From positions 1-64,000 of IMG/VR virus record IMGVR_UViG_3300037520_001276: a DNA stretch of 64,000 nucleotides. The stretch is one strand, 5' to 3'. Both the position numbers and the translations under genes were made by a program. Shown here piece by piece: positions 1,395 through 35,921 of the stretch (position 1 is its first letter; each line of letters begins with the position of its first letter). The notes beneath the pieces were generated by a model. It searched no databases. It was not told where the DNA came from and worked only from the letters and a program-made list of their open reading frames with translations. This DNA is from a virus.

Positions 1395-3749
1395 TTAGCC
1401 CTTTTGGTTGTTGGAGTCTTCGGCACCTGTAGTTGTTGATATTGTCTCTCCTGCGGCTTTCTTTTTAATGTCTCCGTATGTCGGTAAACCAGCCATTTGA
1501 ACCACTTTTGCCTCTGTCTTTTTAACCGCAGTGGTTATTAAATTTTTAGATACCTCACTCACCGCCTGTTTTTCTAAATATTGACCAACTTTTGTGGAAA
1601 TGTAAGTATCATAAGCTATGACATTTTTTAATGCGTTAAATTCTGTTAATGTCATGGGGGTACCTCTTACTAGTTTTATTTTTATAATTCTAGCTAAATC
1701 TGTACTCATTTTACCTAAACCTGGTATTTTACCTATAAAAGGTAAACATGCAAAAAGTAATTCAACCGCCGCCGCTTTATGATTACCTTTTCTGTATTGT
1801 GCGGCTGCACTTCCAAGACTGATACCCGCAGATATTACAGGACCAACAACAGGTATGAACGCCGACGCTAAAGCAAATACATTAATCACTAGTTGTTGAT
1901 TATCCGCGTTTGACCAATTTTTTGATGTTTGTGTTTTATTAATATTTTGTGAGATTGTTTGACCCATCCTATTTTGATAACCTCTACCATCATCAACAGA
2001 TATATTTAAATCAACAGCATTCATATCCCTACATCCACACGTATAGTTTGCAGTGTTAGCCCCACGTACCCATAAACCACCAAAATCCTTACATAGGGTA
2101 TACATACTTAAATAAGCATCAATAATTTTAGGGTCATTACCACCTCTTGCCACTCGTTTCTCCCTCCTTAATGGCATTGTACAATATTGTGGTATTAATT
2201 TTTTTTGTTGTACCAACGCATTATTAAACTCAATCATCTTTTTTTGATTGACAACATTTTGACTTTTTCTTATACCCGCAGCGGTGGTTGACATTGGGTC
2301 TAATTTTACTTGGTTTGTGGTCTTAAATCTGTCAAAATTAGCTTGCTCATAAATTCTATTTTCATTAATATTTGTAGTTGTTGTACATTCTTTACTATAT
2401 AAAGTTGGGTATGGGTAAATATTATTATTTAATTTCCAACCAAAATCTTCAGGAACTCTTGCCCTACCTCTCTTCATTCCAGCAAAAGTTTCAAACCATA
2501 AAAGTGGGTCTTTATTTGTATTCCAAAGATCATAAGGAACTTGACCCGCCTTATTTGTTTTACCACCTCCTGGGTTTTCTTCAGTAAACGTTAATTTACA
2601 TTGTGTTGAAAATTTTGTAACTTTAGGCCCTACATTATTATCAAGTAAATTCAAATAAGATACTTGTATTGCTTGTACGTGATATTTTGTAGAAACGTTC
2701 ATAAAAGACCTTACAAACTTATATGGGTCCGTTTTTAAAGCATTTGCAACTTTATTATACATATCCATATTTTTAATGGCCATAAATGCCGCTTCAGCCC
2801 AAGCTTCATTATCCTGAATTGTACCTCTTGATTCTTTTAATATTTTAGCAATAAATTCAGGTGTTGGGTTATTTTTTAATTCATCGTATGGATAATTTTT
2901 ACTTTTTGTTGGTGTTGTTGGTGTTGTTTTGGATTTATTATTCCATAGAGTTACTAATAAAAAAGGCATCATCATCATAACGTTAGGTTCATTAAGTGCC
3001 GGTCCCAAAGAAACTTTTTCACCATTATTTCGCTTTAACCATCCACCAGCAAGTTTACCATCCTTTTGCATAGATGGGTCCCATTTACCAATACTTTTCC
3101 AACTAGTCTTATCATATAATTTAACATCACCGTTTTGCCAAAACCCTAGTTGTACACCATTAGCATAATAATTTGTTAAAAAATACGCATCACCCTTATC
3201 TGATTTGACTAACTTTACATTACTAGGTTTATATTGATTTAATTTACTATATAAATCGGACCAAACGGCAGAAACTCCGGGCTTTGCTTTAATATCTTTG
3301 TTTAATTCATCTGTAATTTCTTTTTGACTTTTTTTGAACATTGAATAACCCATAGGGTAAGTATAAGTACTGAATCTGGCCGATAGCATTAACTTATTTA
3401 AATCCAATGTTCCCCTATATATACCATCTTTAAATTTAAAATGATAATATTTTTTATCGGATCCATAGAAATATATTGGATACCCACCATTTACTTTAAG
3501 ATCTTTTGATATAATCCAAGAACCCCAATACATGTAGCCAGATTTTGCTGGGTCGTTCGGGTATTCGTATTTTACAGGAAACCCATTTTTTTTAAGATTA
3601 TCATATAAAGCTTTCCAATACCCTATTGGGTCTTTTGGTTTTCCCGCAGGCGCTCTTTCCCATGTTTCGGGTAGAATAGTTCTTTTCTTTCTCTCCTCAG
3701 AAAGAACTAATTTCACTAATCTATCTATTTGGATTTCTTTTATAGTCAT
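1395..3749 (-). CDS. large virion-internal protein A (tagged, hydrophobic C-terminal region)
   Basis: A 784-aa protein and paralogue of the next upstream gene (3751-6756). Residues 1-18 form a tag ending in L-S-E. Residues about 20-150 are a Trp/Tyr-rich module nearly identical between the two. Both have a conserved Cys cluster (QYCT, later CKDFGGLWV and YTCGCRD) and then a Gly/Ala-rich hydrophobic stretch at about 616-676 that could insert in a membrane. The order of targeting tag, soluble body and hydrophobic segment suggests an internal protein that leaves the head with the DNA, perhaps forming a channel. That role is inference. It starts 1 nt downstream of the stop of its paralogue. Confidence 0.8.
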   Translation of the reverse strand: MTIKEIQIDRLVKLVLSEERKKRTILPETWERAPAGKPKDPIGYWKALYDNLKKNGFPVKYEYPNDPAKSGYMYWGSWIISKDLKVNGGYPIYFYGSDKKYYHFKFKDGIYRGTLDLNKLMLSARFSTYTYPMGYSMFKKSQKEITDELNKDIKAKPGVSAVWSDLYSKLNQYKPSNVKLVKSDKGDAYFLTNYYANGVQLGFWQNGDVKLYDKTSWKSIGKWDPSMQKDGKLAGGWLKRNNGEKVSLGPALNEPNVMMMMPFLLVTLWNNKSKTTPTTPTKSKNYPYDELKNNPTPEFIAKILKESRGTIQDNEAWAEAAFMAIKNMDMYNKVANALKTDPYKFVRSFMNVSTKYHVQAIQVSYLNLLDNNVGPKVTKFSTQCKLTFTEENPGGGKTNKAGQVPYDLWNTNKDPLLWFETFAGMKRGRARVPEDFGWKLNNNIYPYPTLYSKECTTTTNINENRIYEQANFDRFKTTNQVKLDPMSTTAAGIRKSQNVVNQKKMIEFNNALVQQKKLIPQYCTMPLRREKRVARGGNDPKIIDAYLSMYTLCKDFGGLWVRGANTANYTCGCRDMNAVDLNISVDDGRGYQNRMGQTISQNINKTQTSKNWSNADNQQLVINVFALASAFIPVVGPVISAGISLGSAAAQYRKGNHKAAAVELLFACLPFIGKIPGLGKMSTDLARIIKIKLVRGTPMTLTEFNALKNVIAYDTYISTKVGQYLEKQAVSEVSKNLITTAVKKTEAKVVQMAGLPTYGDIKKKAAGETISTTTGAEDSNNQKG
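3275..3715. repeat. long direct repeat, copy 1 (N-terminal module)
   Basis: About 440 bp that match 6276-6717 at high nucleotide identity by eye, including long identical runs near both ends. It codes for the shared N-terminal module of the two large paralogues. The identity at DNA level points to recent duplication or gene conversion. Confidence 0.85.
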
Positions 3750-3750
3750 A

Positions 3751-6700
3751 TTACGAGGATCTTACTTCTTGATTTGATTTATCGACTTCAGCAGCAACCG
3801 CCTTTGTTATATTTTCTTTAGCTTTTTGAGCCTGTACTGGATCAAGTTTTTCTGAACCAACTGATGCAAAGTACTGTGCACCTTGCATAGATGCCCTAGC
3901 GGCCATTATCTTTTGTTTAAGAGCCGGAGCAGTTGCTGACGTTATTTTAGTCTTTGCTAACATTGAGATTTGTTTGGCATTTCCCATACCTCCTAAAAAT
4001 GCTGTCGCTATAGCCTTTTCTGAATTTATTATTGTAAAAAATCCCCTAATTTCGGCCGCAGTAAAAGTACCATTTTTAATCAATTTAGCCCCTATTGACT
4101 TAATTAGGTTAGTTTCAAGTTTTAAAACACCAAGTCCAGGTAATACTGAAAAAAATAACGAGATCCCCGCCTGTACTGGATCTCCTTGAACTACACTTAA
4201 AGTTGCGTCCGCTATACCACCAATTACTCCTATTAAAGGTGCTGCTGCCGGAAAAAATAAAGACCCAATAATTGCTCCCCATTGGACTGCTTGTTTTGTA
4301 ATTTCTACCCATGTTGTTGGGTCGGACCAATCTCTTGAAGTTTGTTGGTCTTGAATGTCGGAACCTATGTTTAAAAAGGTACCATACACATCCGTAGCAT
4401 CTGCAGGAGCTTTTTTTCCGTTTGTTCCTGTGTCAAGTTGTATTTTTCCAAATATAGGTGACTTTAAATCTCTACACGTACAAGTATACTTATTTGTGAG
4501 TCCACCACTAACCCATAATCCTCCATAGTCTTTACAAATAAATGACATTGATAATTTTTTTGAAGACATTACTTTGCTTGTTCTTTGATATGAAATGTTT
4601 CCTCCTTGTCCACCAACGGGGTGTTGGTATTCTAAAGTCTCATTAACTTCTAAAGGTGTTGTACAATATTGTGGTATTAATTGTTTTTGTCTTGCCAATT
4701 CCCCATTCCAGTCTTGCATTGTTTTAATTGGTTTGAAATCGGCCTCCTCTTTTTGTTTTTGAGCATTCAATCGATCCTCATCTTTTTGTTTTTCTTGTCT
4801 ATTATATGTATCCACGTCTCGATCTGCTTGGATTTTTCCGTCCATACCAATTTCATTAATTTGATTTGATTTTAATTTAAACTTGTATTTTTTAACAATG
4901 TCTTCAATTATTTGTTGTTTTGGTGATAGTTTTACAAATCTGGACTCAACGTTTAATTTTCCGATAGATTTTTTTGCGCTATTAACCCAATCCATTGGAT
5001 ATGCTAAAGGGAACGGATAAATTTTAGGATTTAAGTCCCACCCAAAGTTTTTAATAATTGTTGCCTTTTCTCCTTTTATGTAAGGATCTGTAAAATTTTT
5101 ACCTTGTGTTAATTCAAAAACAACGGTATTGGTATTTTTATTCAAAAACTTAGGTCCTGTACCACCAGGATTATCAACTCTAAAAGTCAATTTACTATTC
5201 AAGTTTTTCATGAAATCTTTAGAGTTTGGATCTAATCCTGTCATTTTTGGTGCAAAAATGTTTTCGTATGATGCTCGAATTGAAGGTACTTTATCTGATA
5301 ATGGTTTTTCTATTTGTTTAGTTGACAAAAAGGTTTGAACAAATTTAAATGGGTCTTGTTTCATTATCGCAGCCATTTGGTCATATCTTTGTTTGTTATT
5401 AATTCTAGAAAAAACTCTAGCAACTAAATTTTCACTGTCTCCATACCATCTTGTTGCATTTAAAATTATATCCGCTAAAAAATCTACAGCTGGACTTACT
5501 TGTGTTTCTAATATGTTTAAAGCCTGTGGTTCTGTATATTTTCTTACTGCGGTTTGTTTGTTTGCATAATTAAACTTGTCCTCAATTGCGGTTGCCTTTT
5601 TATCTACCATATTAATAACACCACCAACAGTTACACCATATACTTTTGCAATAGTACTTGCTGGTGGTACAGAATATCCTAAACTATTTAATCTTTTTGC
5701 AATAACATCCCATTCTGTTGGGTCCCAATCACTCATTTCAAGTTTAAACCATTGTTCAACGTTTTTAATCTCAGGAAATCCACCTGCTGCGATTTTTGCG
5801 TTTAATTTATCTAAAATACCTTTGTTTTTAATTTTATTGATTGCATTCATTGCCAATGTTTCATTGGTCCTATCATAATCAGTCCAATCGCCATCATTAT
5901 CATAATCAAACGCCTTTTTCAAATCTGTAAAAATTTGTTGTGCCAATTTTTCATCTTCAACATCACCAGCAATAAGTTGATTGTATGGGTAGCTCATAAC
6001 TTGCCCTATATCTAAAGTTTGACCATTTAAATTTTTAACTATTGGTTTACCGGATTTAGTGTCCCAAGACCAAGTACCCTTTTTTTCCATTACATTTGGT
6101 TTGACGGTAAACCATATTTCTGAATTCTTTTTAAATTGTAATTGTTTGTTTTCTTGAGTTGTTTTACCTTTATAATTCATAACCAATTTATCTCCACCGG
6201 ATTTGAAATATTGTACGGATGCTGGTTTGTTTTTTTCTAAAAATGGACCTAAAAGAGTATCAAAAGCATTTGAAGCTCCGGGTTTTGCTTTAATGTCTTT
6301 GTTTAATTCATCAGTAATTTCTTTTTGACTTTTTTTGAACATTGAAAGATTCATAGGGTAACTATAAGTACTGAATCTGGCAGATAGTAATAATTTACTT
6401 AAATCCGATGTTCCCCTATATATACCATCTTTAAATTTAAAATGGTAATATTTTTTATCGGATCCATAGAAATATATTGGATATCCGTTATTTATTTTCA
6501 GATCTTTTGATATAACCCAAGAACCCCACCACATGAAACCAGATTTTGCTGGATTATTTGCGTATTGGTATTGTACAGGTATCCCTCCTTTTTTAAGATT
6601 ATCGTATAAAGCTTTCCAATACCCTATCGGGTCTTTTGGTTTTCCCGCAGGCGCTCTTTCCCATGTTTCAGGTATAATAATTCTTTTCTTTCTCTCCTCA

Positions 6701-6756
6701 GAAAGTGTTAATTTTACTAAATCGTCTATTTGACTTTCGTTTAATTCTATTTTCAT
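3751..6756 (-). CDS. large virion-internal protein B (tagged, hydrophobic C-terminal region)
   Basis: A 1001-aa protein. It begins MKIELNESQIDDLVKLTLSE, a tag ending in L-S-E, followed by the same module as its paralogue at 1395-3749. It has an extra internal section of about 200 residues, including an acidic loop DYDNDGDWTDYD near residue 290 that resembles an EF-hand calcium loop. The QYCT and CKDYGGLWV/YTCTCRD cysteine motifs are kept, as is the Gly/Ala/Phe-rich hydrophobic region at about 809-875. It overlaps no gene but starts 3 nt after the stop of the acidic protein gene, so the three are probably one transcript. Confidence 0.8.
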   Translation of the reverse strand: MKIELNESQIDDLVKLTLSEERKKRIIIPETWERAPAGKPKDPIGYWKALYDNLKKGGIPVQYQYANNPAKSGFMWWGSWVISKDLKINNGYPIYFYGSDKKYYHFKFKDGIYRGTSDLSKLLLSARFSTYSYPMNLSMFKKSQKEITDELNKDIKAKPGASNAFDTLLGPFLEKNKPASVQYFKSGGDKLVMNYKGKTTQENKQLQFKKNSEIWFTVKPNVMEKKGTWSWDTKSGKPIVKNLNGQTLDIGQVMSYPYNQLIAGDVEDEKLAQQIFTDLKKAFDYDNDGDWTDYDRTNETLAMNAINKIKNKGILDKLNAKIAAGGFPEIKNVEQWFKLEMSDWDPTEWDVIAKRLNSLGYSVPPASTIAKVYGVTVGGVINMVDKKATAIEDKFNYANKQTAVRKYTEPQALNILETQVSPAVDFLADIILNATRWYGDSENLVARVFSRINNKQRYDQMAAIMKQDPFKFVQTFLSTKQIEKPLSDKVPSIRASYENIFAPKMTGLDPNSKDFMKNLNSKLTFRVDNPGGTGPKFLNKNTNTVVFELTQGKNFTDPYIKGEKATIIKNFGWDLNPKIYPFPLAYPMDWVNSAKKSIGKLNVESRFVKLSPKQQIIEDIVKKYKFKLKSNQINEIGMDGKIQADRDVDTYNRQEKQKDEDRLNAQKQKEEADFKPIKTMQDWNGELARQKQLIPQYCTTPLEVNETLEYQHPVGGQGGNISYQRTSKVMSSKKLSMSFICKDYGGLWVSGGLTNKYTCTCRDLKSPIFGKIQLDTGTNGKKAPADATDVYGTFLNIGSDIQDQQTSRDWSDPTTWVEITKQAVQWGAIIGSLFFPAAAPLIGVIGGIADATLSVVQGDPVQAGISLFFSVLPGLGVLKLETNLIKSIGAKLIKNGTFTAAEIRGFFTIINSEKAIATAFLGGMGNAKQISMLAKTKITSATAPALKQKIMAARASMQGAQYFASVGSEKLDPVQAQKAKENITKAVAAEVDKSNQEVRSS
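6276..6717. repeat. long direct repeat, copy 2 (N-terminal module)
   Basis: Partner of 3275-3715. The two copies are in the same orientation 3 kb apart, so homologous recombination between them would delete or fuse the two large genes in frame. Confidence 0.85.
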
Positions 6757-6758
6757 TT

Positions 6759-7547
6759 TTATACAAATTCTTCATCATCAAAATCATCATCATCAAAATC
6801 ATCGTCATCGTGTCTCCACCCTCTTTCATCACCAATGTCCCCTAAAAGATCTTCCCAACTATCAAACGATTCTTCATCACTTCCCATTAATTCCGTACCT
6901 TCAAAGTCTCTCATTCCTGGTCTTAAAGCCCTTTTGTAATCATCTTTTTTAATTGTTCTAAATTCTCTCGGATCATAGTCTTTGAATTTTTTTTTGGTAA
7001 TAAAATCATCAAACCCCTCATCTAGTTCTTCATCTCTTCCTTTTGTTTTTGCAAATGCTCTCTTTAAATCATTTACTGAGTGCCCGCCAATTGAGTCGTA
7101 TGGTTCATCTAAATCCGCAAAACCTTCTTTATTAAGTAATTCTTCAATTTCTTCGGCTAATTCGTCATTTCCTTCATCATATAGTGCCTCAACTATATCG
7201 TATTCACTCATTAGATTTAAATCATGTAAATCATATCCACATTCATCTTCCAATATTTGTCTTGCAACTTGGATTAAATCTTGTAGTTCTTCTTCACCTC
7301 TATCAGTTTCGCCCCACTCTTCATCTTCTTCCTCATCGTCAAAAAATCTACCTCTCATGGTTATATCATCTTCGTCATCTAATCCATCATACATGGTATT
7401 ATCTAAATCACTGAAATCACCATCTTCATCGTCACCATAATATGGATCATACATACTTCTATCTTTGTAATCATCACTCATCTCGTTGATGGTTCTTTTA
7501 ACAATTCTTGTTAAATCTGATTCTGTTAGTCTTATAATTTTTTTCAT
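6759..7547 (-). CDS. highly acidic tagged virion protein
   Basis: A 262-aa protein beginning [20 protein letters not shown] then N-E, the third copy of the near-identical tag. The mature part is dominated by Asp and Glu, with Asp-rich runs near residues 20-75 and at the very C-terminus (about 248-262), so the expected pI is very low. Such a protein could neutralise basic head components, act as a DNA mimic or serve as a scaffold component; the sequence cannot decide. TATTTATAAATA, a perfect palindrome, lies 12 nt before the ATG. Confidence 0.78.
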
Positions 7548-7577: not shown

Positions 7578-8537
7578 TTAAAACTTTATCTCGTATCGAT
7601 AATTTTCTAATTTATATGCATCAATTATTTCAACAAAGTCGTCATCTAATCCAACCCTTTCTTGTCTTTCTTCTTTTGTTATATCATCATCTGGAAAATA
7701 TCTTTTATTTACAGTAAAAGAAAATGGTACTTTTTCATCATCACCATCTATTTCTTCAAAGTCACTTAATAACATTTCCCGCCCTTCAAATTCAGATAAT
7801 TTATTTCCAAGTGTTATATACGTTACTCTTGTGATATTATACTTGTATGTACCACTATCTTCTTCACCATAACCATCACAATATCCACAAGTGTGTGATC
7901 CATAACCTCCGCAATCTTCACAACTTTTGTGACCACTTCCCTCACACTCTGAACATTCATAATCACCTTGTCCTCCACAATTTCTACAATCTTCAGTTCC
8001 AGAACCTCCACAACCACCACAATCTACTTCAACTTCTACTTCATCACCTTCATCATCTTCTTCTGTGTCAGTTTCAGTTCCTTTACCATCACAATGCCTA
8101 CATTCTTCAGTTCCTTCACCATAACATTCATTACATTCAATTTTTCCATCACCATCACAATATTTACAATCTTCATTTCCTGTACCATAACATCTACTAC
8201 ATTCTTCATCACCAGAACCTTCACAATAACTACATTCTTGTTTTATTTCTTCTGTATTGTCATAAAAATCAATAACGTATAAAAAAAGACGTGAAGATAA
8301 ACCAATAATAGTTTCTTTTTTATATCTACCTGTAATAATAAGATAGGACATAAAAACAAGTTTAACTTTGTCTGCAGGTGTTGATACTCTTGAAAGTAAG
8401 AGTTCAGCGAAGTGACTTGTTTTACAAACTTTAAGTATTTTACTAAAACCAATAAAACCGTTTTCTCCGTATTCGTCTTTTGCAACTTCTGCTAAAGAAT
8501 AAGATATTCCATATAGTTGTTCATCATTTAATGCCAT
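7578..8537 (-). CDS. protein with ten CxxCxGxG zinc-finger motifs, no J domain
   Basis: A 319-aa protein. Residues about 1-95 are helical and unrecognised. Residues about 99-222 hold ten CxxCxGxG motifs (for example CSYCEGSG, CNECYGEG, CGYCDGYG) of the DnaJ cysteine-rich type, split after the fifth by an acidic insert. DnaJ itself has four such motifs binding two zinc ions, so this protein could bind about five. There is no HPD J domain. The C-terminal ~95 residues are acidic. I start at the ATG at 8537, preceded by TATTTATT at 4 nt, rather than an alternative start five codons earlier. Possible roles are chaperone-like binding of unfolded protein or zinc storage; neither is proven. Confidence 0.8.
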   Translation of the reverse strand: MALNDEQLYGISYSLAEVAKDEYGENGFIGFSKILKVCKTSHFAELLLSRVSTPADKVKLVFMSYLIITGRYKKETIIGLSSRLFLYVIDFYDNTEEIKQECSYCEGSGDEECSRCYGTGNEDCKYCDGDGKIECNECYGEGTEECRHCDGKGTETDTEEDDEGDEVEVEVDCGGCGGSGTEDCRNCGGQGDYECSECEGSGHKSCEDCGGYGSHTCGYCDGYGEEDSGTYKYNITRVTYITLGNKLSEFEGREMLLSDFEEIDGDDEKVPFSFTVNKRYFPDDDITKEERQERVGLDDDFVEIIDAYKLENYRYEIKF

Positions 8538-8541
8538 ATAG

Positions 8542-8549
8542 AATAAATA
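8542..8549 (-). promoter_or_regulatory. late-type element TATTTATT
   Basis: Lies 4 nt before the start codon of the ten-finger protein, the spacing seen at about ten other genes in the window. Confidence 0.45.
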
Positions 8550-8568
8550 CAATGGATTTTAAAAAAAG

Positions 8569-10645: not shown

Positions 10646-11020
10646 TTACCATGTTCTACAAGCCCAATATCTTGGTTTCCATCTTGGACCAGGATTATCG
10701 CAATTATGTCTTGCTCTAAAAGACTTTCTTCTTTCTGGGTTATTTTTCTTTATAACCATTCTTTTACCTTTAGCCGATTTACCACCAAAACCAAAGTTCA
10801 CTTTAACCACCTTTCCTTTGTCGTTTTTAACATATACTTTGAATTTTTTGATGTCTCCTTGCATAATTTTACCAAGTTGGACTTTTCTTCCTTGGTATTC
10901 CGCTTCATTTAAAAAATTAAAATTTTCAACGGATCCATATATGTCTTCATATAAAAAAGAACTTTCTTCTTTAATGAATTCTTCTTTTAAAACTTTTCTT
11001 ATAATTTTTTCTATGTTCAT
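10646..11020 (-). CDS. tagged small basic virion protein
   Basis: A 124-aa protein; I start at MNIEKIIRKVLKEE because TATTTATA lies only 3 nt upstream of that ATG. The tag ends in L-K-E. The C-terminal ~30 residues carry the motif RKSFRARHNCDNPGP then KPRYWAC, which I recall from virion proteins of other large phages, although I cannot verify that here. The body is Lys/Gly-rich, which fits nucleic acid or head binding. Confidence 0.7.
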   Translation of the reverse strand: MNIEKIIRKVLKEEFIKEESSFLYEDIYGSVENFNFLNEAEYQGRKVQLGKIMQGDIKKFKVYVKNDKGKVVKVNFGFGGKSAKGKRMVIKKNNPERRKSFRARHNCDNPGPRWKPRYWACRTW

Positions 11021-11023
11021 ACC

Positions 11024-11031
11024 TATAAATA
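11024..11031 (-). promoter_or_regulatory. late-type element TATTTATA
   Basis: Sits 3 nt before the start codon of the small basic protein. If it were a -10 element, the transcript would start at or inside the ATG. Confidence 0.45.
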
Positions 11032-11042
11032 TCATTGAAGTT

Positions 11043-12497
11043 TTAAATATATTTTTCTACGTGGTTTTTCATGATTTTATGTTGTGCAGGACCGACATGT
11101 ATCCCATCACCCGCAGCCCAAGTACCATCACCCTCAACTGTGGGTATTATTTTTGCCCCGCTTATTTGTGATGAAAGATCTTTTTGTAATTGAATCATTC
11201 TTTTTCTTCCTTCTCTCATGCATTCTTTATTACAAAGAACTGAACCGTCTTTTTTATAAGTGGGTTTTAAATTCTTATCTGTCATTACGGAACTTGCATC
11301 ATAACCTAAGAAAACGTAGGCCTTTCCTCCTTGTTTATTAACTGCGTCTACCATTTTTTGAACGTTTGATACAGCATTTGATAATTTTGTACCTATCCAA
11401 AATGCATCATTTGTTCCACCATAAATGAACACTTTATCGTATTTTTTTTCTGCCAATTTAGGTAACATATTATTTAACATCCAATCTGTTTTCATGCCAC
11501 CCCTAACAACGTGAGTGGTATTCCAACTTGGGTGATCCTTTTCAAGTAGATAATTCCAAGTAGATCCTCCAACACTTAAACTATCACCAACAAACATTAC
11601 ATTATTTGTTGTTTTATCGTCTTTTGATTTTTCTTTATTTGTTGTTTCAGAAGATTTTTCTTGGTTTTTACTTTTAGGGTCTCTAATAACCGAAGACTTT
11701 GTTAGTTTCTCCCAAGTACCATTTATTCTACTCTCTCTTTTTGTTTTAAAATCGTCTAATGACATTTCAATATATGAGACATCAACATTATTATCAAATG
11801 CGAATAAAAATACTCTGTCATCACTTTTTCTTTTTATTCCATAAATTGTTTCATCACCTTTTTTAGCGTTTAAAGTACCAACACTAGATATTTTTACCCT
11901 TGTTGGGTTGTGAATTTTACCTGAGTTAAGTCCGTATTTTAAATATTCTTTTGTTTTTGCTTTTTCTACAGGTTTTTCGGGTGAAGATGATCCATCATCA
12001 GATTTTCTTGAAATATGTACGTGGTGATCGTGACCCTTGAACCCAAACCATAAAACCGCTTTATCATTTCCACTTTCTGAATTAATTTTATAACCCATAC
12101 TTTCTAATGCCCGAACAAACCTTTCAATTTTATCGTAAATTCCATTTTTTTTAGCACTTTCAATACTACTATAACCTACATTATCAAACATAGCAACATC
12201 TACAGCCAACCCGGCCTCATGTCTAGTGCCTGTGTCATGACCAGAAACCGCAGTTGTGATAGATGCTTTTACACCGGCAATTCCTGCAGCGATATCAACA
12301 TCGGCTAATAAAGAAGGATTAATTTTATCTTTTGAAGGTTTACTGTTACCAACTACTCCATCTCTAAAATCAATATTACTATATTTTGAGGGGTCAACTA
12401 ATTTTGGTTCCTCATTTAATAAATTTGAATATTTTTTTAGAACCTTTCTATTGTGGTGATCTAATATTACGTTTCTTATGATATTTTTTAAATGCAT
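11043..12497 (-). CDS. tagged M15-like peptidase fused to SGNH hydrolase
   Basis: A 484-aa protein. Residues 1-29 form a basic tag ending in L-N-E. Residues about 60-165 contain GTRHEAGLAVDVA and HHVHIS, the His/Asp/His zinc-ligand pattern of M15-type (D-Ala-D-Ala carboxypeptidase-like) peptidases. Residues about 179-288 are a module shared with the next gene upstream (12510-13877). Residues about 297-484 are an SGNH/GDSL esterase domain: GDSLSVG (Ser), GGTND and DGIHVG (Asp/His). It would cut cross-links and ester substituents of peptidoglycan or wall polymers. TATTTATA lies 4 nt before the ATG. A tail-tip location is an alternative to packaging. Confidence 0.82.
   Translation of the reverse strand: MHLKNIIRNVILDHHNRKVLKKYSNLLNEEPKLVDPSKYSNIDFRDGVVGNSKPSKDKINPSLLADVDIAAGIAGVKASITTAVSGHDTGTRHEAGLAVDVAMFDNVGYSSIESAKKNGIYDKIERFVRALESMGYKINSESGNDKAVLWFGFKGHDHHVHISRKSDDGSSSPEKPVEKAKTKEYLKYGLNSGKIHNPTRVKISSVGTLNAKKGDETIYGIKRKSDDRVFLFAFDNNVDVSYIEMSLDDFKTKRESRINGTWEKLTKSSVIRDPKSKNQEKSSETTNKEKSKDDKTTNNVMFVGDSLSVGGSTWNYLLEKDHPSWNTTHVVRGGMKTDWMLNNMLPKLAEKKYDKVFIYGGTNDAFWIGTKLSNAVSNVQKMVDAVNKQGGKAYVFLGYDASSVMTDKNLKPTYKKDGSVLCNKECMREGRKRMIQLQKDLSSQISGAKIIPTVEGDGTWAAGDGIHVGPAQHKIMKNHVEKYI
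11630..11973. repeat. direct repeat of shared hydrolase linker module, copy 1
   Basis: Matches 13030-13374 along about 340 bp with long identical runs. Encodes the central module (motifs VKISSVGTL and YGIKRKSDDRVFLF). Confidence 0.8.
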
Positions 12498-12509
12498 ATG
12501 TTATAAATA

Positions 12510-13877
12510 CTAACCAATATAATATAAATGCCAAGGTTCGGCGATCCTTAAAGGTCCTTTAGTTTTATATGTAATTTCAAAACCGTATTTTGATGCATTA
12601 TCTGCGACCCATTTTTTTACATTAGGTTTACCGTCCCACCATTTAGTGTCTGTACTATATATGTCAAAAGCTCTTCCTGTGTGGTGTTGACTAAATCCTG
12701 GTAGCGTATTTGCTGACTGAACATCGTCTATAGTTCTTTTATCTTTTAATACTTTATTAGCGAAGTTTTTAACTTGATCTTCATAACTTCTATAACCAGA
12801 GACCAATCCTCCACTTATACCAAACTTTTTATTACAATCATTTATAAGTTCTAATATTTTCTTTTCCGCTACTTTATTTTTTCCCAAATCAGGTCTTGTT
12901 GACCCTTCCTGTTCAAATTCTTTATCTATATTTTTTTTTGTAATGTTAACACCTTTTTTTATTAAGTCATTAATTACCTTTAAAATTGGTTCTGAAAGTC
13001 TATCGTCTTTTAAATCTCCCGATTTTTGAGTTTCTTTATTTTTTGTTTCAGAAGATTTTTCTTGGTTTTTACTTTTAGAATCTCTAACAACAGAAGTTTC
13101 CGTTAATTTTTCCCATGTACCATTTATTTTAGATTCTTTTTTTGTTTTAAAATCTTCTAATGACATTTCAATATATGAAACTTCAAAATCATTATTAAAC
13201 ACAAATAAAAACACTCTGTCATCACTTTTTCTTTTTATTCCATAAATGTTTTCATTACCCTTTTTAGACTTTAAAGTACCAACACTAGATATTCTTACCT
13301 TTGTTGGGTTATAGACCTTACCTGAATTAAAAAGGTATTGTAAATAATCTTTTGTTTTTCCTTTTTCTACCGGTTTAACGATGTTTGAAACATCTGGTGT
13401 TGTAGTATTACTAAATTTAAAATACTTTGGAGCGAAATTTCTTGGGTTTTCCGCACTACTTGTCTGAGATTTTTTATAAACAAAATGTAGGTGTGGTCCT
13501 GTTGATAGTCCTGTTGAACCTACCGTACCGATAACTTTACCGGCAGAAACATAATCACCCTTATTAACAAGTCTTTTTTCTAAATGTAAATACATTGTGA
13601 CCGTACCATCGTCATGTAAAATTTCAATAAAATTACCATTAGCATTACCAAAATCAGACCTTAAAACTTTTCCAGGGTTTATAACAATTATTGCAGTACC
13701 TTTTGGTTCTCCATAATCTTGTCCCCCATGTAGTTTTTTAACGCCAGTTATTGGGTGAACCCTCATCCCAAAGGGACTTCCTCCGTTTTTAGGTTCCCAA
13801 ACCTTGTCACCCTCATTTAATATTTTTTTTAGGTGTGCCTCTTTTATAACCTTTCTTATTGTACCACTAAGACTCAT
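12510..13877 (-). CDS. tagged M23 peptidase fused to VanY-like M15 peptidase
   Basis: A 455-aa protein. The tag ends in I-K-E at residue 13 or L-N-E at residue 22. Residues about 30-135 are an M23 (LytM) domain: HGGQDYG supplies the HxxxD ligands and GPHLHF the HxH motif. Residues about 166-283 are the module shared with 11043-12497. Residues about 326-455 are a VanY-type D-Ala-D-Ala carboxypeptidase: SGYRS, SQHHTGRAFDI and EPWHLYY. Two peptidoglycan-cutting activities sit in one chain. TATTTATT is 3 nt before the ATG, and a terminator lies just upstream at 13905-13925. The two hydrolases are 12 nt apart and probably cotranscribed. Confidence 0.87.
   Translation of the reverse strand: MSLSGTIRKVIKEAHLKKILNEGDKVWEPKNGGSPFGMRVHPITGVKKLHGGQDYGEPKGTAIIVINPGKVLRSDFGNANGNFIEILHDDGTVTMYLHLEKRLVNKGDYVSAGKVIGTVGSTGLSTGPHLHFVYKKSQTSSAENPRNFAPKYFKFSNTTTPDVSNIVKPVEKGKTKDYLQYLFNSGKVYNPTKVRISSVGTLKSKKGNENIYGIKRKSDDRVFLFVFNNDFEVSYIEMSLEDFKTKKESKINGTWEKLTETSVVRDSKSKNQEKSSETKNKETQKSGDLKDDRLSEPILKVINDLIKKGVNITKKNIDKEFEQEGSTRPDLGKNKVAEKKILELINDCNKKFGISGGLVSGYRSYEDQVKNFANKVLKDKRTIDDVQSANTLPGFSQHHTGRAFDIYSTDTKWWDGKPNVKKWVADNASKYGFEITYKTKGPLRIAEPWHLYYIG
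13030..13374. repeat. direct repeat of shared hydrolase linker module, copy 2
   Basis: Partner of 11630-11973, same orientation 1.4 kb apart. Recombination between copies would make an M23-SGNH fusion. Confidence 0.8.
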
Positions 13878-13990: not shown

Positions 13991-14257
13991 CTACCCCTCC
14001 AATTTAGATTTTGCAAGTACCACCTCAGCCATGGACACCTCTTTTGTCTTACCAATAACCAAAGATTCTTTCAGTATTGAACTTGGTATGTGAACTAAGA
14101 AGTCCTTACCGTTAAAGGTTGAAAGGTTTTGATTCAACTCTATTGATGAGTGAACCATATTTAAAAATATTTTGAACTGAACCTCATCCATGAAAGTCTC
14201 ATTTAAAACTTCTCCGAACTTAGGATGAACTATCATTACGTGTTTATGTGTTGCCAT
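13991..14257 (-). CDS. hypothetical protein, 88 aa
   Basis: Begins MATHKHVMIVHPKFGEVL. No tag and no motif recognised. A mixed alpha/beta composition. Followed after about 65 nt by the terminator at 13905-13925; the stretch between holds a small hairpin (ACACA/TGTGT) but nothing I can name. Confidence 0.65.
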   Translation of the reverse strand: MATHKHVMIVHPKFGEVLNETFMDEVQFKIFLNMVHSSIELNQNLSTFNGKDFLVHIPSSILKESLVIGKTKEVSMAEVVLAKSKLEG

Positions 14258-14746: not shown

Positions 14747-15745
14747 CAATTTTTTTTACCAGTAATCATGTTTTAAAAAAAGGTTGAGATTACACCTGTT
14801 ATTGAGAACCTTTAGAGTCATTATTTATTCTACTCTTATCCACTTCCTTTTGAGAAGTATTCCTCAGTGACGATTATTTAGGTGAATCACTCCTTGAGGT
14901 TTGAATTACTCTCACCTTACTTGACTCTTTCCGAGGATGCCTCCCCAGTTCGTCCTTGCGGGACTAAAGGTTTTTCGGATAATTACACTCAGACTTGGGA
15001 TCCTTGTGTGCAATGAACGGCTCATTACTATGTAGTCACCTTTCATCCAAACCTGACAGACACTTTTCCTTTTTGTAGTTAATAATTTAGTTTTATTACT
15101 TTCCATAAAGTATTTGTGTTGTGGATTGTCAAAGTAGTGGTCTGCCAACCGAGCCAACCCATCTTTTGGACGAATCGATACTCAACTACTCTGTGAAATG
15201 TCCCCATTTCCATACATCAAGATTACTTCAAAACAATTCCTTTGGTAAGGAATTATTAGGGTTGGTAACAGCACCACCTGTACACGAACATACCTTTCGG
15301 TTTTAAGTACCCTATCATAATGGAACTCGCAATAATAAAATCGGATAATCTTATTTTTTGCATAATTCCTACGGGTTATTCCTCTTGGTGTTCCCACCTC
15401 AAACTGACAACCCACATTGCCAGTTCGTCGAACCACTTTCCCTACAGCGTTGCCCTCGGTACTAAAGGTTAAACGGTATCCCGCTTGTGTACTCGACCTC
15501 AACAAGTCATAAGACTCACCAAGACGCAAACCCATTACACGTTAGGTTCACTTTATCCCACTTTCGTGGTTTATTTTAATGGACCATACACGGCCCAATG
15601 ACTTAATTTAGTTTCACACTTAAAGAAAGGGAGGTGTTAATTCGCTTTTTATAATTGTGACGACAATTTCAGTCGGTTTTAGTTTTTCAAAGAACGTTTT
15701 TTAGACTTGACAACGAGTATCTTTCATCTCCTTTAGTTTCAAATC
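14747..15745 (-). ncRNA. putative large structured RNA, about 1 kb
   Basis: About 1 kb with no convincing gene, higher G+C than its surroundings and many inverted repeats: for example an 8-bp hairpin AATTCCTT/AAGGAATT at 15234-15253, CCTCA-GTGA paired with TCAC..TGAGG at 14862-14899, and GTCC/GGAC at 14951-14963. A motif occurs twice on the minus strand: ACCTTTAGTaCCG followed by GACGAACTGG (about 15421-15470 and 14947-14970). A host-type promoter (15751-15782) and terminators bound it. Size, structure and phage context resemble the GOLLD and ROOL families of giant phage RNAs; I cannot assign it to either. Two open frames inside (81 and 117 codons) look incidental. Confidence 0.7.
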
Positions 15746-21096: not shown

Positions 21097-22278
21097 TTAG
21101 TTATATCTCATAACGTAATATTCCTCTCCGTTGATCGTGTACGAATCTGCAGTTCCGTCATAACCATTTAAAACACTTCCATACCCATCAGATCTAATTA
21201 CGTCGTCAATAGCCGCCTCAATATCAACAAAATCTAAAAGTGCGTAATTATCATAACCTCTATCTCTTAATAAACTAAATATATCATCTTTGTTATCATC
21301 AACCATACCTTCTATGGTATCTTCAATTTCTTGTTCATTATAGTCACCTTCTGGATTTTCTTTAATGTCCTCTATTAATTGTTGGTAGTCGTAAATATCA
21401 CTTTCAATTTCTTCTTGTTCTTCATCGGTTAATCCGCCTTCTTCAAGTTTTTGATTTAATCTATCGATATTTGCTTGGTGTATTTCTAAATACCTTTTTT
21501 GTTGATCTGTTAATTCTTTATTTATATTCCAATCTTCTGGACTTTGTCTAACGTATTCACTATAGTCCTCATAAAGATAGTCCCTCACATATCTTTCATC
21601 AATATGATTTTCCCAAACCCATTCTCTAAATGTGTCAAAACCAGATTCCTCAATTTGTGATTCTAACTGTTCTTTTGCCGCATCATATATTTTATCACCT
21701 TCATAAACAACATATTCACTTTCAAAGTTTTTTGATCCTAACCACAAATAAACACTTGAATTACCATAATGATTATAATTCTCTTTAAATAAAAAATACT
21801 TATCTTCACCTTCTTCTACGTTTCCACTTTCTTTTAGGTATTCAAAAATTGCTTCAGTTTCATTTGATTCTTTGTCATCATTTTCAACATTCCAATCATC
21901 ATCCTGTCTTAATACGTCTTGATGTGCAAGTCTTTGTTTATGGATTTTTAATTTTTCTAATCTTTGCATTTCAGAACCGTAATAATCAAATCTACCTCTT
22001 ACTTTATTTTGATCAAAAAATGGAATTTTGGTATAACTGATATCTAAATCACCTTGTACTAAATCAACACTATCTATATTTGTCACATTTTTATTCCCTC
22101 TAAGATCTAATTCACCTGTAATTCTAATTTTTTTACCGTTATAATCTGGAAGTCTTTTAATAAATGAACCATCACCATTAACATAAGCCAAAAGTTCTTT
22201 ATACTCTTCAGGACTAACATCAACCCACTCTTCGGTTTCTTCTTTTATTATTTTTTTAATTAAGGAATTTAAACTCAT
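21097..22278 (-). CDS. tagged acidic protein with leucine-rich-like segment
   Basis: 393 aa. The N-terminus MSLNSLIKKIIKEETEEW is a basic tag ending in I-K-E. Residues about 15-90 contain a short leucine-rich-like run (ITGELDLRGNKNVTNIDS then GDLDISYTK). The rest is very acidic with many Tyr. TATTTATA is 4 nt before the ATG. It may be a head-packaged protein that acts in the host after delivery, as the other leucine-rich tagged protein at 26117 might. Confidence 0.72.
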   Translation of the reverse strand: MSLNSLIKKIIKEETEEWVDVSPEEYKELLAYVNGDGSFIKRLPDYNGKKIRITGELDLRGNKNVTNIDSVDLVQGDLDISYTKIPFFDQNKVRGRFDYYGSEMQRLEKLKIHKQRLAHQDVLRQDDDWNVENDDKESNETEAIFEYLKESGNVEEGEDKYFLFKENYNHYGNSSVYLWLGSKNFESEYVVYEGDKIYDAAKEQLESQIEESGFDTFREWVWENHIDERYVRDYLYEDYSEYVRQSPEDWNINKELTDQQKRYLEIHQANIDRLNQKLEEGGLTDEEQEEIESDIYDYQQLIEDIKENPEGDYNEQEIEDTIEGMVDDNKDDIFSLLRDRGYDNYALLDFVDIEAAIDDVIRSDGYGSVLNGYDGTADSYTINGEEYYVMRYN

Positions 22279-26116: not shown

Positions 26117-27493
26117 TTACTTTTGGTCAAAAATAAAGAAGTTTCCGTCTCTTTCCGCTCTTTGTCTTAATGCATCAGGAATAGTTCCATCAAGTTTGCT
26201 ATTTTTAATATTAATAATTGAAAGTTTAGGTAATTCTGCTAAACATGCCGGTAATGGTTGTAAGTTTGGATTATCAGGTAAAGATAAGAACTTCAACTCT
26301 TTTAAATTACAAATACTATCAGGTATTTTAGATACACAACCAACAAGGTGTAATGCGCTTAACTGTTTAAAGTCTCCGATTTTTTCAGGTAAATCTAAAT
26401 TAAATGCCGATCCTCCTCCTTTATGTGTGAATTCTAATCTTTTAATGTTTTCAGGTAATGTATCAAAAAATTCATCAAACCCATAAAGTGCAATAAATTT
26501 AGATGCTGAATCGCCAGGATAATTAACAGATACTTTTTCACCATTATTTTGTGAAAGACCTTTCATAAATTCAGGTTTAAAGTATTCTTTAAGTCCGTCT
26601 TCTTGTTTAGATAAGAAATCAACCAAATCAATTTGTCTATCCGCAGGGTCCATATATTGATTATCAGGAAAATGGAACTGATAACGGAACGCCGGAAGTC
26701 CTGATTTTTCACCAACATCCATACTTCCTGTAAATTTAGTAGGTGAATTAGGTATAACCACATATAACGGCCCTTTACTAATATATCTTTCAAACCATGA
26801 TAAACCTGGTGATGATGTACACCATCTTGTTTCTCCTTTTTGTGGTTCTAAATGGTGTCCACCGTAAAAACATGCCGCGTCTTTTCCTAATTGTCCTGTG
26901 TCAGAAATACGGGCCACTGTCCAATTAGCCCCACGATAAACGATATCAGCACCTGGATGTTGATAAGTTTTGGATGCCTCTTTTTTCTCGTCAGCAGTTG
27001 CCTTAGTTTTTTCTAAACTGAAATCTTTTACTTGATTATAAAGTGTTTCAGGAGTTAACTTATTTATATCTCTATATTCTTGTGATAACCTTCCTTTAAA
27101 TTTTTCATACTTCATTAAGTCACCTGTAATCTTATAAATGTCTTCTAAAAATTGTGCTTGGTATTCTTTGATTGCTTGTTTAACTGCCGGACTATTAGGG
27201 TCGGTAACACCACTACTTAAATCAATATTTGGTGTTGCGAAGTTTTTAAGTAACCATTGGGTGTATTTTCCAATTTTTACTTTTTCCATGTCTTCGGGCT
27301 TTGCGTTAATTGCCTCCATTCCTTCAGGAATTCTTGATGTTGGATCTGCAGCAATTATCTCAAATAATACATTAAAAGGCATCATACCTTTTCTTGTTTC
27401 TTTGTTTGGTTTAACGTATTTGTCAAATAATACTTGGAATCTTGAGCTTTCAACAATTAAATCTCTTAAAATACTCGTAAATCTAATAGCCAT
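26117..27493 (-). CDS. tagged leucine-rich-repeat protein
   Basis: 458 aa. The N-terminus MAIRFTSILRDLIVESS is a tag ending in I-V-E. The middle holds a Trp-rich module (YRGANWTVARI, then GETRWCTSSPGLSW near residue 223). The C-terminal ~110 residues are leucine-rich repeats (IKRLEFTHKGG, LSALHLVGC, LKFLSLPDNPNL). Leucine-rich repeats usually bind proteins, so this could be a head-delivered protein acting on a host partner. TATTTATT is 16 nt before the ATG. Confidence 0.75.
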   Translation of the reverse strand: MAIRFTSILRDLIVESSRFQVLFDKYVKPNKETRKGMMPFNVLFEIIAADPTSRIPEGMEAINAKPEDMEKVKIGKYTQWLLKNFATPNIDLSSGVTDPNSPAVKQAIKEYQAQFLEDIYKITGDLMKYEKFKGRLSQEYRDINKLTPETLYNQVKDFSLEKTKATADEKKEASKTYQHPGADIVYRGANWTVARISDTGQLGKDAACFYGGHHLEPQKGETRWCTSSPGLSWFERYISKGPLYVVIPNSPTKFTGSMDVGEKSGLPAFRYQFHFPDNQYMDPADRQIDLVDFLSKQEDGLKEYFKPEFMKGLSQNNGEKVSVNYPGDSASKFIALYGFDEFFDTLPENIKRLEFTHKGGGSAFNLDLPEKIGDFKQLSALHLVGCVSKIPDSICNLKELKFLSLPDNPNLQPLPACLAELPKLSIINIKNSKLDGTIPDALRQRAERDGNFFIFDQK

Positions 27494-28482: not shown

Positions 28483-28632
28483 TTGATGTGGGTAACACTA
28501 CTGAAAACAAGGATGTCAGTACTCCTAATTAACAATCTGACCGCTGAAAACTGGGTGAATCGGTTTGGGTTAATTACCTCAATTCTGGGAATGAAATAAT
28601 TTAAACCCCATCTTACAAAAGGTGGGGTTTGT
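28483..28632 (+). ncRNA. putative small RNA or structured leader, about 150 nt
   Basis: Starts a few bases after a full-consensus promoter and ends in a 12-bp hairpin. It contains pairable segments: GTACTG (28477) with CAGTAC (28517 region), ACCG with CGGT, and TTGGGT-TAATT-ACC-CAA. No gene-length frame fills it. It could be a free small RNA, or the leader of the tagged protein gene at 28646. No known family recognised. Confidence 0.6.
28603..28630 (+). terminator. hairpin, probable terminator
   Basis: AAACCCCATCTT pairs with AAGGTGGGGTTT (one wobble) around a 4-nt loop. The following bases are only moderately T-rich, so termination may be partial. Confidence 0.5.
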
Positions 28633-28645
28633 TGTATTTATTAAT

Positions 28646-29128
28646 ATGAAACTATTAAATGTTTTAAAAAAATTAATAACAGAGTCAATTTTTATTGATG
28701 AATTTGAAATTGATGATCAAATAATTAAATTATTTCAGACTTACGAATCTTTAAGGGCGGTTTCAACTTCAAACAAAACAGGAAGGGTTAGTTCTGATGA
28801 AATTATGGATTCAATGTCAGATATTTATGACGTGATTATTGATCAATCTAATATCGTTTTAAAAAATTGTGTTAAAAATTGTTCTTTACTTATACGAGAT
28901 TTTAGGTTGGGCTTCGATTATCAATTGTTTATCAAAAAAGATAATGAAGATAAACTTAAAATAACAATAAACACGTCAATTAGACACCCTTTAGACTTGA
29001 GGAATAAAAAATTTAAAACCAGAGAAATTACTATAACTTCAAATGAAAATATTAGAATAAAAGAAAATTTCAATATTAATCAATTTACTAAAATAATAAA
29101 AGGTGATATTATTATTTATTATAATTAA
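28646..29128 (+). CDS. tagged hypothetical protein, 160 aa
   Basis: I start at ATG 28646 (MKLLNVLKKLITESIF), not an upstream GTG that would begin in the hairpin. The tag ends in I-T-E. TATTTATT lies 3 nt before the ATG, on the plus strand, matching the spacing seen at minus-strand genes. The mature part is alpha/beta with several Asp/Ile repeats. Function unknown; probably packaged. Confidence 0.7.
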   Translation: MKLLNVLKKLITESIFIDEFEIDDQIIKLFQTYESLRAVSTSNKTGRVSSDEIMDSMSDIYDVIIDQSNIVLKNCVKNCSLLIRDFRLGFDYQLFIKKDNEDKLKITINTSIRHPLDLRNKKFKTREITITSNENIRIKENFNINQFTKIIKGDIIIYYN

Positions 29129-33840: not shown

Positions 33841-34335
33841 TTATTTAATTGATTTTAAAATTATCTTTTTGATTTCTTCTTCACTTAATCCTGTTCTTAG
33901 TGACACATTTTCAATCGCTTCACTAAGTGGTGATTTTTTTATTTTTCTCGGTTTAACTTCTCTTACAGGTTTATCTTTACTATCCCCCTGACTACAATAT
34001 GGAAAAGTTTTACATTTTTTATTAAACGAAACAAAAGAACCGCCAGGTATTTGTGTTCTTTTATATGATCTACCGGAACCTATTGGGTGATTACCTCGCA
34101 TATTAACGTCTTCAAACCCTGGCGCATCATAAGCACCAACAGAAGATGATGAGGTCGCTTCTTTAAATTCGCCCTCCATTCTTTTGTATTCTTCCTTTGC
34201 CTCCTCATCATTAGAAAACATAGAAAAAGCCGGACCTTCAAAACCACCAGCAGAACCTGCACCTGTAGCCTCTTTAGGTTCATCTTTAACTTTTTTTAAA
34301 GACTTTTTTATTAACTCATTTAATAATTTATCCAT
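33841..34335 (-). CDS. probable virion protein with EAT-motif repeats
   Basis: 164 aa. Two similar segments, KEATGAGSAGGFEGPAF and KEATSSSSVGAYDAPGF, lie about 36 residues apart. The C-terminus repeats a basic-helical pattern (GLSEEEIKKIILKSI). The N-terminus MDKLLNELIKKSLKKVKDE resembles the tags but does not end in (L/I)-x-E. The stop overlaps no gene but the start overlaps the stop of 34335-34583 by one base. Structural role inferred from composition and context. Confidence 0.62.
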   Translation of the reverse strand: MDKLLNELIKKSLKKVKDEPKEATGAGSAGGFEGPAFSMFSNDEEAKEEYKRMEGEFKEATSSSSVGAYDAPGFEDVNMRGNHPIGSGRSYKRTQIPGGSFVSFNKKCKTFPYCSQGDSKDKPVREVKPRKIKKSPLSEAIENVSLRTGLSEEEIKKIILKSIK

Positions 34336-34583
34336 TACTTCTTATTTTTTAAACTTCCTTGCCATGTGTTCTTTTTTGTCCACATTGTGTAATAAAACTC
34401 GGCCATCATATTGGTAAATATTTCATTAAAATCAGGTCTTAGTGATCCGTTTTTTAATTCTTTGCCCATTTTTTTAATTAATGTATCCTCAAATTTTTTA
34501 ACTGTAGGTTCTCCAAGAAAATCTTTTATCTCTTTTCTAACTAACGTTTCTAATTCTTTTTTTTCTTGTGGTGAAAGTGCCAT
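34335..34583 (-). CDS. hypothetical helical protein, 82 aa
   Basis: Begins MALSPQEKKELETLVRKEI. Helical with a basic C-terminus. One-base overlaps with both neighbours indicate coupled translation in a block running from 36510 to 33841. Confidence 0.65.
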   Translation of the reverse strand: MALSPQEKKELETLVRKEIKDFLGEPTVKKFEDTLIKKMGKELKNGSLRPDFNEIFTNMMAEFYYTMWTKKNTWQGSLKNKK

Positions 34584-34996
34584 TATTTAAATAATTGAAT
34601 ATAAACGAAGGAAGCCATTAAAACTCCGGAAGCAATTTCAACAATATTTGATTTTATTCCTGACCATTTTAATTTACCTCTTAGGTCCTTATTATCTTGT
34701 TCTACAAGTTTGTATTTTTCTTCAACACCAGCAACTATTAGTTGATTATTAACGTCTTTCTGCTCTAATTTTGATATAACTGAATCCTGCTTAACTATCT
34801 TTTTTTGTAATTCAATTATTTCAAAATCAGTTAATTTTTTTAACTCTCTTAATTTATCTAACTCATTTAAGTCAGTTTCTATTTGTCTACCCACTTCAGT
34901 AGGAAAACATATTTGTGTGGTGTCTTTTTTAACTTCTTTTTGTGAATATGAGTATGTCGATACTATCACAAAAAATAAAACTAATATTTTTTTCAT
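34583..34996 (-). CDS. exported coiled-coil protein with C-terminal membrane helix
   Basis: 137 aa. An N-terminal signal peptide (MKKILVLFFVIVSTYSYSQ), a periplasmic coiled coil at about 40-105 and a C-terminal transmembrane helix (IVEIASGVLMASFVYIQLF). This is the topology of a unimolecular spanin except that there is no lipobox Cys. With 34999-35352 and the amidase-like gene it may form a lysis cassette. Confidence 0.6.
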   Translation of the reverse strand: MKKILVLFFVIVSTYSYSQKEVKKDTTQICFPTEVGRQIETDLNELDKLRELKKLTDFEIIELQKKIVKQDSVISKLEQKDVNNQLIVAGVEEKYKLVEQDNKDLRGKLKWSGIKSNIVEIASGVLMASFVYIQLFK

Positions 34997-34998
34997 AT

Positions 34999-35352
34999 TT
35001 AAAACTTATATCTTTTTCTCAATGAGCTATCAATTTGTTTATTAGTCCAACCCGGTATTTCTTTGGCCTTTTCATCATAATAGTTGTTTATTACTGTTTT
35101 TTGTGCTCTTATATTTTCAATGGTCTCATCAATTTTTTCTATGTCTTTTTTATAAACTGATATCGAGTCATCTAAATCTTTTTGTTTTTGTTTAAGGTCA
35201 TTAATTTTAGTATCTAACTGTTGTAATTTGTATTTCAACAACTCACTCTTGTCAGGTGCCGGAGTTAAAACTTTAACCAATAAAAAGACAACAACACCAA
35301 TTAATAGTGTTAATAATATTTCTTTAAAATATTTTTTTATAAAATTTTTCAT
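34999..35352 (-). CDS. membrane-anchored coiled-coil protein, i-spanin-like
   Basis: 117 aa. One N-terminal transmembrane helix (ILLTLLIGVVVFLLVKVL, residues about 12-29), then a coiled coil to about residue 90 and a basic end. This matches the layout of Rz-type inner-membrane spanins, but spanins diverge so much that layout is the only evidence. Confidence 0.55.
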   Translation of the reverse strand: MKNFIKKYFKEILLTLLIGVVVFLLVKVLTPAPDKSELLKYKLQQLDTKINDLKQKQKDLDDSISVYKKDIEKIDETIENIRAQKTVINNYYDEKAKEIPGWTNKQIDSSLRKRYKF

Positions 35353-35921
35353 TACTTTTCTTCTTCTTTTTTAAATTCAGTTTTTCTTCTATTAGATAAA
35401 ATTTTAGCCCACTTAGATTTGAACTTATTATAGTAACCTGTTAATTTATTTATTAGTTCTGTAAGTTTTTCGTCTAATTTAATCATATCTCCGTTGATAT
35501 ATACTCCGTTGTTTTCTCCAATAGAGAAGAAGAATTCCAAATCAAAATCAATGACTTTACCGCTCCATTGTACTTCGTTTGGGTACATGTTTAAAACACC
35601 AAAATCAGACAAATCTGATACTTCAGAAACAAACTCATCCATAGTTTCTTGATAAGCGGTTTTTTCATCTGTAGTTAATTCAACGTCTTTTTTTTCTTTA
35701 CCATGTAATGTTAAAAGACCTCCTGATATTCTATAAGACTTACTTTTATCTCTTTTCTCTACTTCAGGTTTTTCATCTTGTACATCAGCAGTTTCATACC
35801 CTTGCTCATCATCTTCAATGTTATCTTCTATACTTTTTGCTAAATTTATTCTTGATGCCTGTTCTTGTAGCATTCTCGATCTTTTTAACAAATTTTTAAT
35901 TTCGTCGTACTGATTACTCAT
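35352..35921 (-). CDS. probable virion or scaffold protein
   Basis: 189 aa. The N-terminus MSNQYDEIKNLLKRSRMLQE is a basic helix ending in L-Q-E, a further candidate tag. An acidic linker follows, then a folded part (YRISGGLLTLHGK, then VQWSGKVIDFDLEFFFSIGE). Overlaps its downstream neighbour by one base. Structural role inferred. Confidence 0.6.
   Translation of the reverse strand: MSNQYDEIKNLLKRSRMLQEQASRINLAKSIEDNIEDDEQGYETADVQDEKPEVEKRDKSKSYRISGGLLTLHGKEKKDVELTTDEKTAYQETMDEFVSEVSDLSDFGVLNMYPNEVQWSGKVIDFDLEFFFSIGENNGVYINGDMIKLDEKLTELINKLTGYYNKFKSKWAKILSNRRKTEFKKEEEK

Follow-up and report, generated by a model that had tools for sequence, protein, structure and literature searches.

Tagged two-enzyme peptidoglycan hydrolases of a T4-like phage: probable exchangeable head cargo built around a common module

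Introduction

The internal proteins IPI-IPIII and Alt of phage T4 are a diverse, exchangeable head cargo that carries a short conserved N-terminal peptide ending in L/I-X-E (PMC3012670, PMC9026906). According to the available text of PMC9026906, gp21 cleaves after L/I-X-E, IPIII needs no more than its first 10 residues to be targeted, and an Asp in place of the cleavage glutamate blocks processing. T4 capsid-targeting sequences (CTSs) are about 10-20 residues long, and the cargo comprises anti-restriction proteins and an ADP-ribosyltransferase. In the giant phages SPN3US and phiKZ, which have cleaved ejection proteins, many head proteins likewise have N-terminal propeptides cut C-terminal to Glu, but the motif is AxE or (S/A)xE and several propeptides are much longer than the tags analysed here; the available text of PMC7411985 and PMC9026906 mentions no slot with comparable swapping.

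Phage T7 possesses a head-internal transglycosylase, gp16, and among gp16 and related ejection proteins with wall-hydrolase domains, domains are swapped (PMC8954989). Modular phage endolysins and tail lysins, with M23, VanY and Amidase_2 catalytic families in multi-domain builds, usually combine an enzyme with a wall-binding domain. To our knowledge, gp16 bears no cleaved targeting tag.

Here we analyse two adjacent genes, encoding proteins A and B, in positions 1 to 64,000 of IMG/VR virus record IMGVR_UViG_3300037520_001276 (hereafter the window). Like the T4 internal proteins, A and B begin with a short peptide ending in L/I-X-E, and T4-type gp21 and gp23 are encoded by relatives of this phage. 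However, the tag sequence differs from T4's, and what follows it is a peptidoglycan hydrolase of two enzymes joined by a middle module common to both proteins. In T7, the hydrolase used at entry is a lytic transglycosylase within a very large core protein without a shared module, whereas A and B, for which a head-internal role at entry is predicted, have one. They share catalytic families and multi-domain build with endolysins and tail lysins, from which a capsid-type tag, two enzymes and a joining module set them apart. On our best reading, A and B would resemble T4 internal-protein cargo in working and T7 gp16 in purpose.

Results

Proteins A and B are encoded on the minus strand by ORFs 12 nt apart, with the following features (↓ marks the end of a tag or the joint of a motif; relatives are denoted by L and G numbers).

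11043..12497, minus strand: protein A, 484 aa (tag - M15-like - module - linker - SGNH)
12411..12497, minus strand: A tag, MHLKNIIRNVILDHHNRKVLKKYSNLLNE↓, with site LNE (aa 27-29)
11985..12410, minus strand: A M15-like peptidase block, aa 30-171, 80% identical to L188
11673..11978, minus strand: module in A, aa ~174-275
11073..11594, minus strand: A SGNH/GDSL hydrolase domain, aa 302-475 (Pfam PF13472, Lipase_GDSL_2, 1.3e-8)
12510..13877, minus strand: protein B, 455 aa (tag - M23 - module - linker - VanY)
13812..13877, minus strand: B tag, MSLSGTIRKVIKEAHLKKILNE↓, with candidate gp21-type sites IKE (aa 11-13) and LNE (aa 20-22)
13464..13733, minus strand: B M23 peptidase domain, aa 49-138 (Pfam PF01551, 4.8e-25)
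13074..13379, minus strand: module in B, aa ~167-268
12513..12875, minus strand: B VanY/LdcB-like carboxypeptidase domain, aa 335-455 (Pfam PF02557, 4.1e-22)

A preliminary description had proposed two adjacent tagged multidomain wall hydrolases, and its ORF coordinates proved exact, with M23, VanY and SGNH all passing Pfam cut-offs. The M23 domain of B scores 88 bits against a cut-off of 28.7 and retains both HxxxD and HxH ligand motifs (H50, D54, H129-x-H131). Lysostaphin is among its PDB relatives, and the PDB chains with an M23 domain also include some labelled 'Internal protein' and 'Gp16'. The VanY domain (78.8 bits against 25) keeps the zinc motif H398, D405, H450, and its match to NCBIfam LdcB/DacB (2e-18) falls under that model's own cut-off. 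In A, the SGNH domain scores 36 bits against 32.9, with the blocks GDS, G, GTND (GxND) and DGIH (DxxH) at aa 304, 333, 360 and 464. A structural model predicted for the whole of A (pLDDT 47) lends weak support to the SGNH fold only; in this low-confidence model the SGNH domain resembles carbohydrate esterases, TesA and the PG O-acetylesterase Ape1.

The reading of A as M15-module-SGNH holds for SGNH and is less secure for M15. No Pfam model matched the N-domain above cut-off (M15_4, E 0.08, 14 bits against 25), and we name it M15-like only for this reason. In its favour are a zinc motif of the form H-x6-D ... HxH (H93-x6-D100 ... H161) and the conservation of that motif in L188 at 80% identity. 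Neither A nor B was found to contain a hydrophobic signal or membrane segment.

Next, we compared the two proteins block by block. The middle module proposed earlier to be shared is confirmed: 94 of 138 aa are identical in the A/B shared region (68%, E 3e-58), 300 bp are 86% identical at the DNA level, and the local alignment score of the module pair is 481, where the best of 500 shuffles reaches 75. The tags are also alike (42 against a shuffle maximum of 32). By contrast, the N-domains of A and B, and likewise their C-domains, align no better than 500 shuffles. Identity between modules is 73% for A and B, 58% for A and L001, and 34% for L014 and B at the amino acid level; the closer A-B than A-L001 likeness fits a duplication or conversion within the window's lineage.

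When the module was compared with known wall-binding families (LysM, PG_binding_1 and others), none of the Pfam or PHROG profiles matched it better than chance, and a search of the genome contigs gave no match. Structure prediction yielded a low-confidence model (pLDDT 63), for which no fold match in PDB or BFVD reached an E below 0.03. A relationship to T4 gp9 was considered and rejected; tblastn returned E 0.03-0.2 only, and neither a PDB profile search nor a fold search supported it. Since the module is retained in three enzyme combinations and resembles no known family or fold, one may reasonably suppose a constant partner (a wall polymer or a virion protein) to which it would probably bind, though this does not go beyond a guess.

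We then asked what occupies the corresponding position in relatives. In the window, the A/B position forms a slot between two genes.

13991..14257, minus strand: left boundary, conserved 88-aa gene
10646..11035, minus strand: right boundary, tagged phrog_7595 protein, 129 aa, ...FLNE↓AEYQGRKV

The slot is empty in ten relatives, where only ~220-240 nt separate the 88-aa gene from residue 43 of the 129-aa protein. Where filled, it measures 3085 nt in the window, 1585 in L001, 1688 in L014, 1723 in L115, 1611 in L118 and 729 in L114. L001 holds a B orthologue alone (74-75% identical), with A absent. The single gene of L014 encodes the same tag type followed by Amidase_2 (3.7e-6, passing the cut-off in a scan restricted to the N-domain), the module and an SGNH-like C-domain. 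Profile comparison of this C-domain with the SGNH domain of A is weak, so that its label rests on motifs and on homologues in L163 and L169; these (L163:11284-11817 and L169:5177-5671) are free-standing and have signal-peptide-like N-termini. The L115 slot encodes a tagged protein with LysM, and that of L118 a tagged protein of no assigned family, with a tagged PG_binding_1 protein just beyond. In L114 (6476-7366), a tag and an extra domain are fused in frame to the phrog_7595 protein, which keeps its own EDIYGS...LLQE↓AEYQG joint. Searching viral contigs with whole A retrieved no relatives; the M15 block alone as query led to L188. An M23 profile run over 17 records gave matches in G000 and G001 only, most of the remaining records being fragments.

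DNA comparisons locate the exchanges. The left flank is 95% identical between L014 and the window, with 93-100% just upstream of the B tag. Over the tag itself similarity falls to 66-80%; it disappears beyond codon ~22-30 of B and resumes at the end of A. B and L014 have tag and flank in common, but not the N-domain. L188 encodes the M15 block of A (80% aa identity) behind a different tag, with the module absent; DNA similarity to A begins at codon ~25-30, at the LLNE motif, and stops before the module. Between B and L001, DNA identity is about 0.6-0.8 until codon ~260, then 0.97-1.0 for ~60 codons, corresponding to the linker after the B module (aa ~265-324, 97-100% identical). Homology as read from these alignments breaks near the LNE motif of the tag and at linkers, and the second joint is the C-edge of the module in the B-L001 comparison. 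Exchange of end domains around the module had been suggested from A and B; the third combination in L014 (amidase-module-SGNH) and the module-free M15 block in L188 support it beyond the original claim.

The tag was searched for as h-[ILV]-[RK]-x-h-h-x-[ED] within the first 40 residues. The genome that served to define this motif is also the one used for the count; the motif is present at the N-termini of 11/86 ORFs and at none of 21,775 internal positions, with 0.56 expected from shuffled N-termini. An excess within the first 20 residues is likewise seen in a set of 999 non-redundant ORFs drawn from 170 loci. When 41 tagged, otherwise unrelated proteins are aligned, the glutamate of (L/I/V)xE is the sole invariant column; as the motif itself demands E or D there, the independent evidence is its position. 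The propeptide of a T4-type internal head protein (short, N-terminal, ending in L/I-X-E) has its counterpart in A and B and throughout the 41 aligned proteins. The first candidate site of A reads VILD, and because Asp at that place blocks T4 processing, only LLNE would serve. The open literature searched contained no mention of the tag letters.

Tag-like N-termini also occur on phrog_7595 homologues of the T4-like phages HTVC008M and C48C1. The joint reads L(N/T)E↓AEYQG in C48C1 and, similarly, LEE↓AEFQG in HTVC008M, and genes adjoining the phrog_7595 homologue in C48C1 likewise begin with CTS-like peptides. Tagged genes adjoin gp23 in G009 and lie within the head block of Flavobacterium phage immuto, in which the motif itself is present in 1/50 ORFs only. 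Tags are, however, not confined to head neighbourhoods, since a tagged 245-aa protein is encoded beside gp25/gp6-like baseplate genes (L009:17575-18312, minus strand). Tagged proteins resembling this 245-aa protein are found in L017 and L022, and the case cautions against taking each tag for a sign of head cargo.

Several other tagged proteins were noted. Two large paralogues at 1395-3749 and 3751-6756 (minus strand) have hydrophobic segments in their C-terminal part and no Pfam or PHROG match; they are candidate ejected membrane-active proteins. Tagged proteins without assigned function lie at 694-915, 922-1359, 6759-7547, 21097-22278 and 26117-27493 (minus strand) and at 28622-29128 (plus strand). 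A tagged protein at L123:8487-9122 matches the Peptidase_M91 effector family weakly (E 0.0017, below cut-off). Tag-like sequences at C-termini, such as NESLEKIIKNILSSL, LNEEITRIKNFIKKIL and LSEEEIKKIILKSIK, are seen at L102:2473-3180, L188:4887-5963 and window 33841-34335, and are possible C-terminal propeptides.

The window lies within an 84,396-bp linear record whose baseplate wedge genes are located beyond it; neither gp21 nor gp23 was found in this record, which is a fragment. Baseplate relatives are plentiful in IMG/VR, up to 281 kb. One larger relative, G004, encodes T4-type gp23 (1e-61) and gp21 (7e-24; PDB 5jbl, 1.7e-14), and gp23 is encoded in G009 too. G004 gp23 contains LINE↓A at residue 60, which we infer to be the gp23 cleavage site in this clade. 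Named phages with the best capsid matches include immuto and Microcystis phage Mel-JY01; a Bacteroidota host is our guess only. A literature search for virion evidence on immuto found none. An untagged Amidase_2 gene (35914-36510) with membrane-protein genes on either side belongs to a probable lysis cassette (34583-37651, minus strand) and is the likelier endolysin.

Discussion

We consider it probable, by a modest margin of confidence, that A and B are exchangeable peptidoglycan-active head cargo of a T4-like phage, with the tag a cleaved capsid-targeting sequence and action on the wall at entry. From the sequence features above we infer that the tag would carry the A or B precursor into the prohead core, where a gp21-type prohead protease would cut after (L/I)xE, so that the mature enzyme stays inside the head next to the DNA. 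When the phage infects a cell, A and B would exit with the DNA and act on the wall during entry. By the predicted activities, M23 and M15 would cut peptides or cross-links, VanY would trim stems and SGNH would probably remove acyl groups, with the common module joining the two enzymes. Recombination would swap whatever sits behind the tag, as the tag would be what matters for delivery.

Head packaging had been raised in the preliminary description as something unusual, and it is plausible as a conclusion drawn from the gp21 motif at the tag end, gp21 and gp23 in relatives, and tagged phrog_7595 homologues in T4-like phages. Its premise, the tail as the normal place of wall hydrolases, goes too far, since one such enzyme, T7 gp16, is internal to the head.

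Could A and B instead be tail or baseplate lysins, docked on a tail protein by the tag? M23 and VanY domains are known from tape-measure and baseplate lysins, one tagged gene adjoins gp25/gp6-like genes, and the module matches T4 gp9 connectors very weakly (E 0.03-0.2). We regard this as unlikely, given that the tag is common to many unrelated proteins and ends in a gp21 motif, that no tag is present on any of the tail-block genes listed for immuto, whose tag-like N-termini lie on the head side, and that the gp9 hint gained no support in profile or fold searches.

The tag might also be a general sorting signal (to a replication compartment, membrane or scaffold) rather than a cleaved capsid-targeting sequence, as its presence on many proteins without assigned function, some distant from head genes, would allow. 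Its position and LxE ending agree with T4 CTS rules, a T4-like Kyanoviridae phage also has the L(N/T)E↓AEYQG joint, with tag-bearing neighbours alongside, and the clade gp23 carries LINE↓A, all of which render such a signal improbable. Least probable is late action in the producing cell, as endolysins or wall remodellers whose tag is a leader with another job: their enzymatic domains are typical of endolysins and the L163 and L169 homologues of the L014 SGNH domain have signal-peptide-like N-termini, but A and B lack a hydrophobic signal or membrane segment, a separate amidase gene has membrane-protein neighbours at 34583-37651, and the slot is often empty.

Returning to head cargo, we tentatively suggest that the locus may be a dedicated slot in which two-enzyme hydrolases built around a common adaptor module are swapped behind a capsid-targeting tag, forming a lineage-specific wall-opening kit in the head; this is possible rather than probable. 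If true, T4-style head cargo would include modular wall enzymes in addition to counter-defence proteins, and in many uncultured jumbo phages the tag would provide a sequence handle for cataloguing what the head carries. Enzyme swapping at the slot, perhaps in response to differing host walls, would be a natural experiment, and virion proteomics could directly test whether contractile-tailed phages deliver wall hydrolases from the head.

Two further features of the window deserve mention. The protein encoded at 7578-8552 (minus strand) contains many CxxCxGxG-type repeats and is DnaJ-zinc-finger-like, without a J-domain. GOLLD, a phage RNA that forms nanocages, lies beside the slot at 14781..15193 (minus strand; Rfam RF02032, 314.8 bits). 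It is present in 7/10 relatives checked, next to the slot in most of those examined, and was located at L014:4586-4998 and L188:6699-7111 and also in L108, L109, L111, L113, L116, L118 and L119.
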